In this document: positions 10,164 through 14,583 of the stretch, piece by piece
How the letters are laid out: each line of letters opens with the position of its first letter
Numbering within the stretch: the stretch's first letter is position 1
Assembly (NCBI GenBank): GCA_029262835.1
Contig: JAJCYQ010000074.1
Location: forward strand, 1-41,725
Source: Bacteroidota bacterium
Lineage (GTDB): Bacteria > Bacteroidota > Rhodothermia > Rhodothermales > UBA10348
Reading direction: 5' to 3'
DNA: 41,725 nt
The notes under the pieces: generated by a model
What the model saw: the letters and a program-made list of their open reading frames with translations, nothing else
Told to the model about the DNA's origin: nothing
Databases searched by the model: none
Position numbers and translations under genes: made by a program

Positions 10164-11074
10164 CAGGTCGCGGTATGGGAGACGTGTAGGGTGCGGGTTG
10201 TCATGATACACAGGACGACAACGCCAGCGAAGAGCAGTGCCCCTGTAACCATATGTGCCGTATTCAGAACCACCTGCAGGTTACTGGGAAGTAGCAGACC
10301 ATTTTCATTGATGGTAACAAAGTAGGCCAAAATGCCGAGCAGAACCTGCAAGGAAACGAGCCCCACTACCACGCGTGTCCAACTCACGACCGGAATACCG
10401 GTCCGGAACAGACTCCGGACGCGCATTGCCAAGAGCACGATGAGCACGGTTACAACAAACGCCCACGTCATGTGCAGGGCAGCAAGAAATGCATCGATAC
10501 CGGCTCCTGGGTGGCGCAACAGGGCGCCGAGGATTATCTGGAGGTAAAGTGCAATGGGGGTCAGGATGAGTAGCGGGCGAACGCCCATTTCCCGATCCAG
10601 ATCTGCGGCCAGCGGGAAAACAGGACGCGACGACCAGGACGGCGACGTGAATACGATCATGGCGGAGAGGAGAGCAAAGTACAGTTGGGCCGTACCAGCA
10701 TGCACGATGGCCAGGTCGAGAGAGACGAAAACGACGCGTAGCCCACCCAGAACACCCTGGAGCGAAACGAGGATGAGTGCGCCCAATCCGGTCCATTTCA
10801 TCCATCGTCTTTCGTCAGAGGCCCACGTCCAGACGGCCAATACAAGCGTGAAAATCCCAACAAGCGCTCCGATGAGACGATGACCGTGCTCGGCAAGGAC
10901 GGGCGTTACGGTCCACCAGTCTGGCCAGGGATTGAATGGATCGTACGAATTGAACGAAGAAGGCCAGTCAGGGACGGCCATGCCAGCGTTTATACTCGTG
11001 ACGAATGCGCCCCACGACAGGAGCACGATGGCGACCATCCAGGTCAGTATGGTAAAACGATTGCGGCGCTTCAT
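10163..11074 (-). CDS. ctaA: Heme A synthase (CtaA/COX15 family)
   Basis: The 303-residue integral membrane protein converts heme O to heme A by oxidising a methyl group. Eight hydrophobic helices are visible. The conserved histidines occur in expected contexts: EHGHRLIGALVG, LAIVHAGTAQLYFA, LRHPGAGIDAF...LHMTWAF and LNTAHMVTGALLF. The frame is open with a GTG at 11080, but the ATG at 11074 (MKRRNRF) is a more natural start. The presence of ctaA and ctaB together implies an aa3-type cytochrome oxidase encoded elsewhere. A good Bacteroidota-type promoter lies about 40 bases upstream. Confidence 0.93.
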   Translation of the reverse strand: MKRRNRFTILTWMVAIVLLSWGAFVTSINAGMAVPDWPSSFNSYDPFNPWPDWWTVTPVLAEHGHRLIGALVGIFTLVLAVWTWASDERRWMKWTGLGALILVSLQGVLGGLRVVFVSLDLAIVHAGTAQLYFALLSAMIVFTSPSWSSRPVFPLAADLDREMGVRPLLILTPIALYLQIILGALLRHPGAGIDAFLAALHMTWAFVVTVLIVLLAMRVRSLFRTGIPVVSWTRVVVGLVSLQVLLGILAYFVTINENGLLLPSNLQVVLNTAHMVTGALLFAGVVVLCIMTTRTLHVSHTAT

Positions 11075-11111
11075 GGGCACACCAACAATGGGGTGGGTGG
11101 TTTCGTTCTTT

Positions 11112-11145
11112 CAAATATATCAAGAGCGCGCGAAATGCCCCCCAA
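11112..11145 (-). promoter_or_regulatory. Putative promoter of ctaA-ctaB
   Basis: On the minus strand, TATATTTG (11119-11112) is an exact match to the Bacteroidota -7 consensus TAnnTTTG. A TTG (11145-11143) lies about 23 bases upstream in the -33 position. The element is about 38 bases before the chosen ctaA start. The same octamer occurs upstream of the acyltransferase gene at 36132-36139. No transcription start data are available. Confidence 0.6.
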
Positions 11146-11235
11146 TGCTTCTACAGTGGAATGGATGGGTATGATGACGTATATTCTCGGGCTATAGATT
11201 CGTCTTGAAACAGAACCTGTTCAGCGGGCATCGGA

Positions 11236-11640
11236 TTGACCTTGTTCAGACACATATGGACTGTTCGGCTGTGCGCCGGCCTGCTGCTCGTGGGTACGGT
11301 ACTGTGGCTGATCGTCCCGCAGGCATTCGCCGCTTCCACATCGTCTGACACGGGTGGGTGGGTCCAACACTTCATCCAGGGACAACCTGAACCGTCGTCG
11401 GTCCCTGATGGCGGTATGCAGTCCACGTCTGATTTGTCGAATCTTCTTATCCAGCCGGTCCTGGTTGCTGGTAGTGCGCCGACGCTCTCTGCCCCACGGA
11501 GCGACATACACGCCCGCCAGGAGAAAACCAGTGAGGTCGCCGTACTCTCCTTTGTGGCTGGCCAGCAGCTATGGGAACGGGCCGCCGGCGGTGCACACGT
11601 TCCGACACTTCTGTGCAGCCTGCGACCCCAGGGACCGTAG
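11236..11640 (+). CDS. Short secreted protein upstream of secD; candidate Sec-monitoring leader peptide
   Basis: The 134-residue product starts at a TTG (no ATG precedes the signal peptide in frame). It has a well-formed signal peptide: basic n-region RHIWTVR, hydrophobic core about 12-28, and cleavage motif AFA before Ala33. The rest is low in hydrophobicity and matches no family I recognise. The C-terminus runs through FVAGQQLWERAAGG to LRPQGP and stop. SecM, VemP and related arrest peptides are secreted or membrane-targeted proteins encoded just upstream of secA, secDF or yidC, and their C-terminal ends stall the ribosome. SecM ends its arrest motif with IRAGP. The position, size, signal peptide and Pro/Gly-rich end fit that class, but there is no demonstrated homology. 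The last codons (11631-11637) can base-pair with the leader at 11670-11676. Alternatively it is an ordinary small secreted protein, or a chance open frame. Confidence 0.55.
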   Translation: MTLFRHIWTVRLCAGLLLVGTVLWLIVPQAFAASTSSDTGGWVQHFIQGQPEPSSVPDGGMQSTSDLSNLLIQPVLVAGSAPTLSAPRSDIHARQEKTSEVAVLSFVAGQQLWERAAGGAHVPTLLCSLRPQGP

Positions 11641-11772
11641 CGGGAATCTCCTGTCCGGATTCTGACCCGCGGTCCCGGGAAATCCCGGCCCGCTCTGGAA
11701 TAGCCTTTCCCGGCATGTACCCGGGACTACTGGTACTTCCGATTATTTCATCGCGTCCCGGAATCACGGGAC
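11631..11772 (+). promoter_or_regulatory. Structured secD leader with mutually exclusive stems
   Basis: Between the small secreted-protein gene and secD, complementary GC elements recur. GGGACCG (11631-11637, last codons of the small gene) is perfectly complementary to CGGTCCC (11670-11676). GTCCCG at 11672-11677 can instead pair with CGGGAC at 11722-11727 or 11767-11772. GTCCCG at 11755-11760 forms a perfect 6-bp, 6-nt-loop hairpin with CGGGAC at 11767-11772, only 16 bases before the secD ATG. TCCCGG occurs four times (11673, 11683, 11708, 11756) and CCGGGA twice (11675, 11721). The competing pairings resemble an attenuator or translation-sensing leader. No T-tract follows, so a simple terminator is unlikely. 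Function is inferred. Confidence 0.5.
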
Positions 11773-11788
11773 AAAACGCGCATCCATC

Positions 11789-13663
11789 ATGCAAAAAAAC
11801 GGATTCAAGATATTCCTGGTCGCATTTTTCTTTGTGCTGACCGGGTACTATCTCTACCCAACCATCCAGAATTACTTCATCAGTTCGAAGCTCGATTCCA
11901 TGACCGTAGAGGAGCGGTCAGAGTACGAGGCGGAAAATGCAGCGACACTCAATTCCGTCAGGGAGCGCTCGCTCAAGCTTGGGCTTGACCTCCAGGGCGG
12001 CATGCACGCTACGCTCGAGGTTCGCGTTGATGCCCTCATCAGTGCCCTTGCCGTTGATACGGACGAGGTGTTCGAGGAAGTCCTTGCGGAGGCGCAGGCC
12101 GCTTCATTCGATTCTGACGTCTCGGCCATCGATGCCTTCGTCGACGCGTTTGAAGCGCGCGACCCGAACGCCCTGCTTTCCCGTTACTTCCGAAATGAGG
12201 CGGCTGGAATAACCAGGCGCTCGTCCAACGAGGAAGTCGCCGCCTATCTCCGTACGGAAGCCGATGAGGCCGTACTCAGAGCCATCGAAATCATTCGTGA
12301 CCGCGTGGACCGGTACGGTGTGACCGAGCCGGCCATCCAGCGGCAGGGGAGCCGGCGGGTCGTGGTCGAACTTCCGGGTGTAGATGATGAGGAGCGTGTA
12401 CGCGGCCTGCTTCGCGGTACGGCCCGACTGGAGTTCCGTCTCATGGCGGAGCCCGCCGATCTGACACGTGCCCTGCAGCGGGTCATTGAATTCTACGAGG
12501 CGACGGCGCCAGATTCCACCGAGGCAGATTCCCTCGGAGACGCTGCCGCTGAGCCAGACACCACCTTCGATATCAATGCGCTTCTTGAAGGAGACGACGC
12601 CGGTTCAGGTAATGAATTCCTGGACGTGTTCCAACCCATTGGTCAGGAGGTCATTTTTGGATCGGTTGCCGTGCAGGACACGGCCCGGGTCAATGATCTG
12701 TTGAACCGTCCGGAAGTCCGGGAGCTGCTTCCACCGGGCGTAGAGCTGATGTATACGGCCAGTCCGGCGGGTACTACGGCCGACGGCACGGAGGTCTTTT
12801 ACCTGCTGGGTGTGCGGGATACGGAAGAGCTGACAGGAGAAGTAGTGACGGACGCGCGCGTCGAGTTCGATCCGTTCACGAACGTTCCGGAAGTTTCGAT
12901 GACCATGAACTCAGAGGGGGCGCGCACGTGGGCGCGTCTTACTGGCGCAAATGTCGGGAAATCTGTGGCGGTGGTGCTTGATGGCGTTGTGTATTCCTAT
13001 CCGGTCATCCAGGAGCGTATTTCTGGTGGTCGGACCAATATCAACGGACTCGACTCACGGGAGGAAGCTTCCGACATCGTGACGGTCCTCAAATCGGGTG
13101 CTCTGCCCGCACCGGTCGATATTGTCCAGGAGCGGACTGTCGGGCCGAGCCTCGGCGCACGGTCCATTCAGTCGGGCCTGAACTCTGTACTGCTCGGGCT
13201 GACACTTGTGGCGCTGTTCATGATGTTCTATTACCGCACCGGAGGCGGGATAGCGAACCTGGCGCTCATCCTGAACCTGATATTCATTCTCGGAATCCTT
13301 TCCGGGTTCAATGCCACGCTGACGTTGCCTGGCATTGCGGGTATCGTACTGACCATCGGTATGGCGGTCGATGCCAACGTGCTCATATTTGAGCGGATAC
13401 GGGAAGAACAATCGACGGGGAAGACGCTGAAAGCGGCCATCGAAGGTGGCTACGCGAAGGCTCTATCCGCCATTTTCGATGCGAACATCACCACGTTCTT
13501 TGTCGGTGTGATCCTGTACTCGTTCGGTCTTGGACCCATCCAGGGCTTTGCCGTCACTCTCATGGCAGGCATTCTGTCGTCCATGTTTACGGCCATCGTC
13601 TTTACCCGCATCATTTTTGACTACATGATCGCCGAGCGTCGTATGACGGTCTCTTACGGCTGA
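11789..13663 (+). CDS. secD: Protein translocase subunit SecD
   Basis: SecD works with SecF to pull proteins out of the SecYEG channel on the periplasmic side using the proton gradient. The 624-residue protein has TM1 at about 8-28, the conserved LGLDLQGGMH at about 64-73, a large periplasmic P1 domain up to about 455, and five more helices (about 465-620). The proton-pathway motif GMAVDANVLIFERIREE is intact, with Asp528 matching the essential aspartate of E. coli SecD. The P1 domain carries an acidic insertion (about 232-285), which I believe is common in Bacteroidota SecD. The ATG at 11789 lacks a Shine-Dalgarno sequence and is preceded by a GC hairpin (11755-11772). secF follows after 17 bases. 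Confidence 0.97.
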   Translation: MQKNGFKIFLVAFFFVLTGYYLYPTIQNYFISSKLDSMTVEERSEYEAENAATLNSVRERSLKLGLDLQGGMHATLEVRVDALISALAVDTDEVFEEVLAEAQAASFDSDVSAIDAFVDAFEARDPNALLSRYFRNEAAGITRRSSNEEVAAYLRTEADEAVLRAIEIIRDRVDRYGVTEPAIQRQGSRRVVVELPGVDDEERVRGLLRGTARLEFRLMAEPADLTRALQRVIEFYEATAPDSTEADSLGDAAAEPDTTFDINALLEGDDAGSGNEFLDVFQPIGQEVIFGSVAVQDTARVNDLLNRPEVRELLPPGVELMYTASPAGTTADGTEVFYLLGVRDTEELTGEVVTDARVEFDPFTNVPEVSMTMNSEGARTWARLTGANVGKSVAVVLDGVVYSYPVIQERISGGRTNINGLDSREEASDIVTVLKSGALPAPVDIVQERTVGPSLGARSIQSGLNSVLLGLTLVALFMMFYYRTGGGIANLALILNLIFILGILSGFNATLTLPGIAGIVLTIGMAVDANVLIFERIREEQSTGKTLKAAIEGGYAKALSAIFDANITTFFVGVILYSFGLGPIQGFAVTLMAGILSSMFTAIVFTRIIFDYMIAERRMTVSYG

Positions 13664-13680
13664 TCCATAAGGAAACCATC

Positions 13681-14583
13681 ATGAGAATATTTGAAAATGC
13701 CAACTATGACCTGGTAGGCAGCCGTAAAATCGGATACATCATATCGGGTGTACTGCTTACCCTGAGTCTCTTTTCGCTTGTATTCAACGGCCTCGAAGTC
13801 GGAATCGATTTTCGGGGTGGTATGGAATTCATCGTTGAGCTCGACGACGTGCATACGGCTACAGAGGTACGATCTGTGCTGGCAGATGTACTTGACCAGG
13901 AGCCGGAAGTCAAGACGTTTGGTTCGCCGAACGACCTGCTTATCCGGACGGCCGATACACGGGACATGCGCGAGGTCCAGGCGCTCATTGTGAGCACCAT
14001 GGAACAAGCCTTTCCCGGGTCGAACCCGGAGGTGCTCAAGACGGATATTGTGGGACCGCGCTTCGCAAAGGACCTGCAGCAAGGTGCCATCTACTCCATC
14101 CTGGGCTCGCTACTGGTCATCTTCGTATACATTCTGATCCGTTTCGAGTGGCGTTTTGGCGTCGGCGCGGTGGCCGCACTCTTTCATGACGTGCTCATCA
14201 CGCTCGGCGTGTTTTCGCTGCTCCGGTTCATTGTCCCGTTTTCACTCCAGGTTGATCAGACGATCATCGCGGCCTTCCTGACTATTGTCGGGTATTCGCT
14301 GAACGATACGGTGGTCGTTTTCGACCGGATACGGGAGTATACCGGCCTGTTCAAGGCAGAGAAATACGCGACCATCGTCAACCGATCCATCAACAATACC
14401 CTCAGCCGCACGGTCGTAACGTCCGGTACCACCTTGATCGTGGTACTCATCCTGTTTATATTCGGCGGCGAGGTATTGCGCGGATTTGCGTTTGCGTTGA
14501 TGATTGGTGTCGTCATTGGTACCTATTCGTCAGTTTTTGTAGCGTCACCCGTTGTGCTGGCCCTTCGCCAGCGAACCACCTGA
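13681..14583 (+). CDS. secF: Protein translocase subunit SecF
   Basis: The 300-residue partner of SecD has TM1 at about 17-37, the family motif GIDFRGG at 41-47, a short periplasmic domain, and five further helices from about 135. GYSLNDTVVVFDRIREY (205-220, with Asp209 and Asp215) is the SecF counterpart of the SecD proton motif. It is encoded as a separate protein, not as the SecDF fusion found in many Bacteroidetes. It sits 17 bases downstream of secD, with a modest AAGGAAA ribosome-binding site before the ATG. It is presumably co-transcribed with secD and with the STAS gene 15 bases downstream. Confidence 0.97.
   Translation: MRIFENANYDLVGSRKIGYIISGVLLTLSLFSLVFNGLEVGIDFRGGMEFIVELDDVHTATEVRSVLADVLDQEPEVKTFGSPNDLLIRTADTRDMREVQALIVSTMEQAFPGSNPEVLKTDIVGPRFAKDLQQGAIYSILGSLLVIFVYILIRFEWRFGVGAVAALFHDVLITLGVFSLLRFIVPFSLQVDQTIIAAFLTIVGYSLNDTVVVFDRIREYTGLFKAEKYATIVNRSINNTLSRTVVTSGTTLIVVLILFIFGGEVLRGFAFALMIGVVIGTYSSVFVASPVVLALRQRTT

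Follow-up and report, generated by a model that had tools for sequence, protein, structure and literature searches.

A small coding open reading frame (ORF) with a signal-peptide-like N-terminus, conserved C-terminal amino acids, and a near-invariant UAG stop codon occupies a fixed place before secD in the window (the whole 41,725-nt stretch of DNA analyzed here) and in most genomes of the order Rhodothermales. The best reading of this upstream ORF (uORF), which we consider probable, is an arrest peptide that monitors Sec export and acts at termination: it probably serves as a sensor, through which a failure of export would jam the ribosome at the uORF stop codon and switch secDF on. This would explain why a domain-less protein sits before secD, and would widen the range of the stop-codon arrest layout known for SecDF to include most genomes in an order of environmental bacteria.

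A coding uORF with a signal-peptide-like N-terminus upstream of secDF

The uORF (11236–11640, + strand) comprises 134 codons, with a TTG start and a TAG stop. An untranslated spacer of 148 nt (11641–11788, +) separates it from the ATG of secD (11789–13663, +; PF22599, PF21760, and PF02355), which is followed by secF (13681–14583, +; PF02355), and these two genes are the proposed targets. The upstream neighbor is a divergent COX15/CtaA gene. The source contig (C74) is part of a 3.45-Mb genome, and the SecD proteins of two environmental Bacteroidota MAGs (L088 and L089) are 92–93% identical to that of the window. A second TTG at 11242 may be used as an alternative start; the resulting M-F-R-H-I-W would resemble the starts of many relatives.

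The encoded protein reads MTLFRHIWTVRLCAGLLLVGTVLWLIVPQAFA-AS...SLRPQGP, and then TAG. Its N-terminus, MTLFRHIWTVRLCAGLLLVGTVLWLIVPQAFA|AS (signal peptide, 11236–11331), includes an n-region, a hydrophobic core, and an AxA site as read from the sequence, with a hydropathy peak of 2.84, and is kept within the genus; 102 residues lie past the cleavage site read in this way. The original prediction, i.e., a 134-residue ORF with a signal peptide and no recognizable mature domain on the same strand upstream of secD, holds on each of these points, and searches of Pfam, NCBIfam, and PDB with the uORF protein returned no match at E-values up to 1. The predicted coding pattern was also found, and the ORF is confirmed as real and coding: NG86 dN/dS was 0.165 between the window and its congener G003, and 0.257 between G003 and G001 (for the third within-genus pair, synonymous sites were saturated and the ratio undefined), compared to 0.031–0.036 for secD. 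Differences between the window and G003 were distributed as 30/24/72 across the three codon positions, i.e., with a third-position excess, and, in each pair, both alternative frames were interrupted by stops in one or both sequences, with ratios >1.

The congener copies of the protein are 65, 60, and 44% identical to that of the window (the last over residues 13–88), and when 60 genomes were searched with the whole uORF sequence, the only clear relatives came from 3 genomes of the same genus (E ≤ 7.3e-13). Conservation within the genus covers the signal peptide and following stretch (first ~70 residues), a mid-segment (QSTSDLS.LL.QPVLVA.SAP, kept in 3 of 4 members), and the tail, which reads LRPQGP in two members and LQPKGP and IQALGP in the others. 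Two C-terminal segments had been singled out in the original prediction. For LRPQGP (11620–11637), the last ~five residues and the stop codon are conserved, whereas FVAGQQLW varies in the genus, with a partial match in G003 (FVVAQLRW) and none in the two other congeners.

Distribution and C-terminal motif across Rhodothermales

The uORFs of the order were collected by position before secD, not by similarity. From 114 genomes, 6 without a secD match at E 1e-60 and one with only a C-terminal piece (G261) were set aside, leaving 107 counted genomes, two of which had short upstream DNA (192 nt in L315 and 486 nt in L314). A same-strand uORF with a hydrophobic N-terminus, ending in [G/A/T]-P-stop before secD, was identified in 87 of these 107 genomes and in 14 of 15 families; in a preliminary look at 30 loci, a P-ending same-strand ORF had been found upstream of secD in 30/30. 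The census rule was loosened after the first pass (hydrophobic cut-off of 1.3, Thr accepted at position −2), and ORFs ending in RIAP, RISP, or RITP, which represent the end of a neighboring gene in family f14 (with a TGA stop), were removed before counting. Controls under the same rule were near zero, with 6/435 detections in shuffled upstream DNA and 1/87 on the reverse strand (both from the 87 positive loci), and 0/89 inside secDF regions (from 30 loci). Hence, a conserved small ORF with a signal peptide and a conserved C-terminus does recur upstream of secD in related genomes, as had been anticipated.

The C-terminal consensus of these 87 uORFs is [QR]-P-[LRM]-G-P. Position −1 is Pro in 87/87, and position −2 is Gly (67), Ala (18), or Thr (2). 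Position −3 is mostly Leu (41), Arg (22), or Met (18), with Asn in 1/87; Pro occupies position −4 in 71 uORFs, and Arg and Gln are each found 30 times at position −5. Among 53 uORFs, the shortest has 87 aa and the longest 229 aa. By blastp, 63 of the 87 uORFs join one cluster, and parts of the protein besides the tail are thus kept in many families of the order. A candidate homology between the body of the window genus uORF and those of other families was dropped, as decoys scored nearly as well: the full HMM gave 2.0e-7 for the window protein vs. 4.1e-7 for a body-shuffled decoy, and a body-only HMM gave an E-value of 2.1. By these tests, homology between the body region of the window protein and the uORFs of other families is undetectable.

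The uORF was absent in 20 of the 107 genomes: a single genome in f12, 6/6 in f14, and 13/14 in f15, where one genome had just 192 nt of upstream DNA. Together, f14 and f15 (L064–L066, L071, L072, L267–L276, and L312–L315) are without the uORF in 19 of 20 genomes, and these absences are apparent losses, or else reflect a later gain elsewhere. At L285 (G253; f12), KPRAP is followed by two further codons (NR) before TAG, i.e., the motif is displaced from the stop. Upstream of secA and yidC in the genome of the window, no P-stop uORF was found among ORFs of at least 40 codons within 800 nt.

Selection on tail amino acids and on the UAG stop

Across 53 uORFs, the terminal Pro is encoded by all four codons (CCC 23, CCG 13, CCT 9, and CCA 8), as is the Gly that precedes it, and selection therefore acts on the amino acids. 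The opposite pattern was observed for the stop codon (11638–11640 in the window), which is TAG in 86/87 uORFs, the sole exception being a TGA in L087 (f10). UAG is recognized by RF1 only. For ORFs of at least 250 aa, stop codons were TGA in 83, TAA in 28, and TAG in 25 cases (n = 136; 3 of those TAG are uORFs), i.e., TAG in 22/133 once uORFs were removed. By family, the stop was TAG in 13 of 14 uORF-positive families; a family-level binomial was computed for 12 of these 13, and since genomes are related, its values are used as a guide and none as proof.

We compared these patterns to loci outside the order. In the same class (mostly Balneolales), we considered 36 distinct loci (5 duplicates dropped) from 20 of 24 same-class genomes and from named Balneolales, omitting L117, whose contig begins inside secD. 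A P-stop was found at 35/36 loci (the single miss being L109), with TAG in 30 and TAA in 5, and with tails reading N-A-P or G-A-P in 33 and R-A-P in 2. Outside the class, none was detected in 20 loci of split-secD groups, and 7/65 loci of a fused set had P-ending ORFs, two of which (PKP and VKP; 339 and 366 aa) are neighboring genes. Among 18 loci of another order with fused SecDF, i.e., those matching near the SecD N-terminus from 40 distinct genomes (4 of the 18 overlap another sample of this analysis), 16 displayed P-stop uORFs, with TAA in 7, TAG in 6, and TGA in 3. The stops of this other order are thus mixed, and in this sample the UAG preference is strong within the class and absent outside of it.

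At the level of sequence, the fresh element is thus a near-invariant UAG coupled to a freely recoded Gly-Pro end across the order, and RF1 selectivity can thereby be tested directly. As a natural series in which the amino acids may change codon but the stop is locked, these uORFs could be used to study the blocking of release factors by nascent chains, and they also bear on a possible difference between RF1 and RF2 in this respect. We tentatively propose, as a possible rather than a probable extension, that the order uses an RF1-selective termination-arrest sensor, in which [QR]-P-x-G-P and UAG would have evolved together, since release by RF1 alone would be open to blocking (or slow enough), and in which the identity of the stop would be part of the signal setting SecDF levels.

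Proposed mechanism and alternative readings

A Pro tail selected at the amino acid level, together with a near-invariant UAG, points to an arrest at termination. The signal peptide of the uORF would target the growing chain to the Sec machinery, and once Pro occupies the P site and UAG the A site, the [QR]-P-x-G-P end would hinder RF1-mediated release and stall the ribosome at the stop. Normal export would then pull on the nascent chain and let termination proceed, while under weak export the ribosome would stay parked at the uORF stop, which may alter the fate of the 148-nt spacer (through RNA structure or transcription through the spacer) and raise secDF expression. We infer that the ribosome stalls, that it does so at termination and in dependence on RF1, that export releases it, and that secDF is induced; a connection between arrest and secDF expression is suggested by analogy to uDF_RQH_Enterobacterales, for which arrest induces secDF2 (PMC10987492). 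The original prediction was of a SecM-like arrest-peptide layout. Its core idea is supported by the comparison across the order, and a terminal Pro followed by UAG is a better fit to termination than to an elongation arrest of the SecM type.

In an elongation arrest of the SecM/RAPP type, Gly would occupy the P site and Pro-tRNA the A site, with the stop codon being incidental. The R/Q near the end and the Gly-Pro step do resemble the RAGP of SecM, stalling in the RQH family occurs at the third residue of motifs resembling R-A-P-P (PMC10987492), and L285, with PRAP two codons ahead of the stop, would be better accounted for in this way. However, because R/Q is found chiefly at −5 (60/87) and Pro at −4 (71/87), the RAGP register misfits most members, and such an arrest would leave unexplained both the Pro before the stop in all 87 uORFs and the near-invariant stop itself (86/87), so that we consider it unlikely. 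The uORF could instead be co-transcribed with secDF and simply encode a small exported protein of an ordinary kind, whose C-terminus is involved in structure or binding and causes no arrest. The signal peptide, the conservation of the first ~70 residues in the genus, and the single blastp cluster holding 63 of 87 uORFs would all be compatible with this, yet between the window genus and the rest of the order, similarity in the body is undetectable and the last residues persist. In addition, length varies widely (87 to 229 aa in 53 uORFs), and the function of a protein would not favor UAG over UAA or UGA in 86 of 87 cases, which makes this explanation quite improbable. Finally, stop codons can undergo recoding, and a conserved UAG might also mark a leader for which the TAG is read through or recoded to yield an extended protein. 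We regard this as extremely improbable, since the in-frame extension past the stop has a median of 29 codons vs. 33 and 36 in the other frames (87 uORFs), and is dissimilar among the four genus members. Arrest at termination is thus our preferred reading.

Relation to known arrest peptides

TnaC, a tryptophan sensor, is arrested at termination when Pro is in the P site and a stop codon occupies the A site, and a long untranslated spacer precedes its structural gene. The proposed arrest at the uORF would share this configuration and the long spacer, but the uORF has a UAG stop and a signal peptide, whereas TnaC uses UGA and RF2 and has no signal peptide. SecM is a secretion monitor with a signal peptide, and VemP has a different arrest sequence. 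The uORF resembles SecM in carrying a candidate arrest sequence with a Gly-Pro step, but differs in register and stop adjacency, as the arrest of SecM occurs during elongation, when Gly165 is in the P site (PMC10987492), at an RAGP located inside the ORF, before secA. Its P-Q-G-P end departs from the SecM/RQH motif, (R/Q/H)-(A/G/D)-(P/G/S)-(P/G). Similar to the uORF, VemP is a secretory protein encoded before secD2-secF2 that monitors transport, although in Vibrio (PMC11470409).

Within Bacteroidota, uDF_NAP-stop (Fujiwara et al. 2024, PMC10987492) includes 396 uORFs with a shared terminal Pro, mainly from three orders, which may include Rhodothermales. For a tested member, peptidyl-tRNA accumulates, residues −3 and −1 are needed, and the stop codon occupies the A site of the ribosome stalled in vitro (PMC10987492). 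Because P-stop arrest peptides before secDF were already published for Bacteroidota, the uORF of the window is not new in kind, and the original suggestion that a stalling leader for SecDF would be new was too strong. Like uDF_NAP-stop, it is a Bacteroidota uORF before secDF, with an N-terminal localization signal and Pro directly before the stop. It differs in having Q-G in place of N-A at positions −3 and −2 (Q-G-P), and in the consensus of its order, [QR]-P-[LRM]-G-P with a near-invariant UAG. Hence, it falls outside of NAP-stop by motif, and likely works in the same way judging by its layout and likely mechanism. A terminal Pro and stop are also shared with uA_NSP-stop, which is likewise arrested while its stop codon occupies the A site, requires residues −3, −1, and −5, and differs in preceding secA in Sphingobacteriaceae and in its N-S-P motif with Lys at −5 (PMC10987492). 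More generally, the uORF displays the sequence-level features expected of Sec/YidC monitoring substrates: it is a small uORF, function-less by database, directly before a sec gene, with an N-terminal secretion signal (from hydropathy and sequence reading), a C-terminal sequence conserved among homologs, and >30 residues between signal and arrest site (102 after the cleavage site) (PMC10987492). A word search of the main text of PMC10987492 returned no mention of UAG, amber, or release factor. Our literature search yielded no paper on arrest peptides in Rhodothermales or Cytophagales, nor on secD stalling in Salinibacter.

A separate ORF of 135–145 aa with a hydrophobic N-terminus was observed 88–130 nt before secDF in L118, L122, L127–L130, L133, L134, L136, and L138, which we take to be Prolixibacteraceae. 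These ORFs have a loosely common acidic-then-Pro tail and a TAA stop (TGA in L122), two examples matched no confident Pfam or NCBIfam family, and they possibly represent another monitor.

The spacer and the step downstream of arrest

Spacer length across the order ranges from 67 to 453 nt, with a median of 145. A SecM/VemP-style unmasking of the secD start was evaluated and rejected: the change in accessibility was 0.016 vs. 0.003 for shuffled spacers (53 uORFs), and 0.011 vs. 0.000 for controls in same-class uORFs (n = 27), i.e., near controls, and thus provides no general support for this step. A rut-like spacer for TnaC-style Rho antitermination was also discarded, with C>G in 47/53 spacers vs. 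18/21 other gaps. No sigma-70 promoter or terminator was found at 11080–11800, no Rfam match at 11000–12000, and no convincing RNA fold shared within any of eight sets of genus or family sequences.

For the 83 of 87 spacers of ≤300 nt, the best hairpin fell in the top bin relative to shuffles in 42/83 members (40/83 on repeat), for ~13 expected; 2/7 other gaps did so as well, and 7 gaps are too few to call the spacers special. The best hairpin in the spacer of the window was not above shuffles (67% of 200 fold as well), although its 231-nt segment folds at z = −2.0. A small hairpin before the secD start (GTCCCG-GAATCA-CGGGAC, 11755–11772, +) is weak and seen in few sequences: five pairs are unchanged in two congeners (G001 and G003), the sixth is changed on both sides in G001 and broken in G003, and G002 lacks this segment. 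GGACCG (11632–11637), which forms the end of the uORF coding sequence, can pair with CGGTCC (11670–11675), and by eye this pairing is absent in the aligned congeners. In four members of the same family (L042, L050, L052, and L037), a terminator-like hairpin and U-run are located ~30–35 nt before secD, an arrangement that would fit attenuation in these members.
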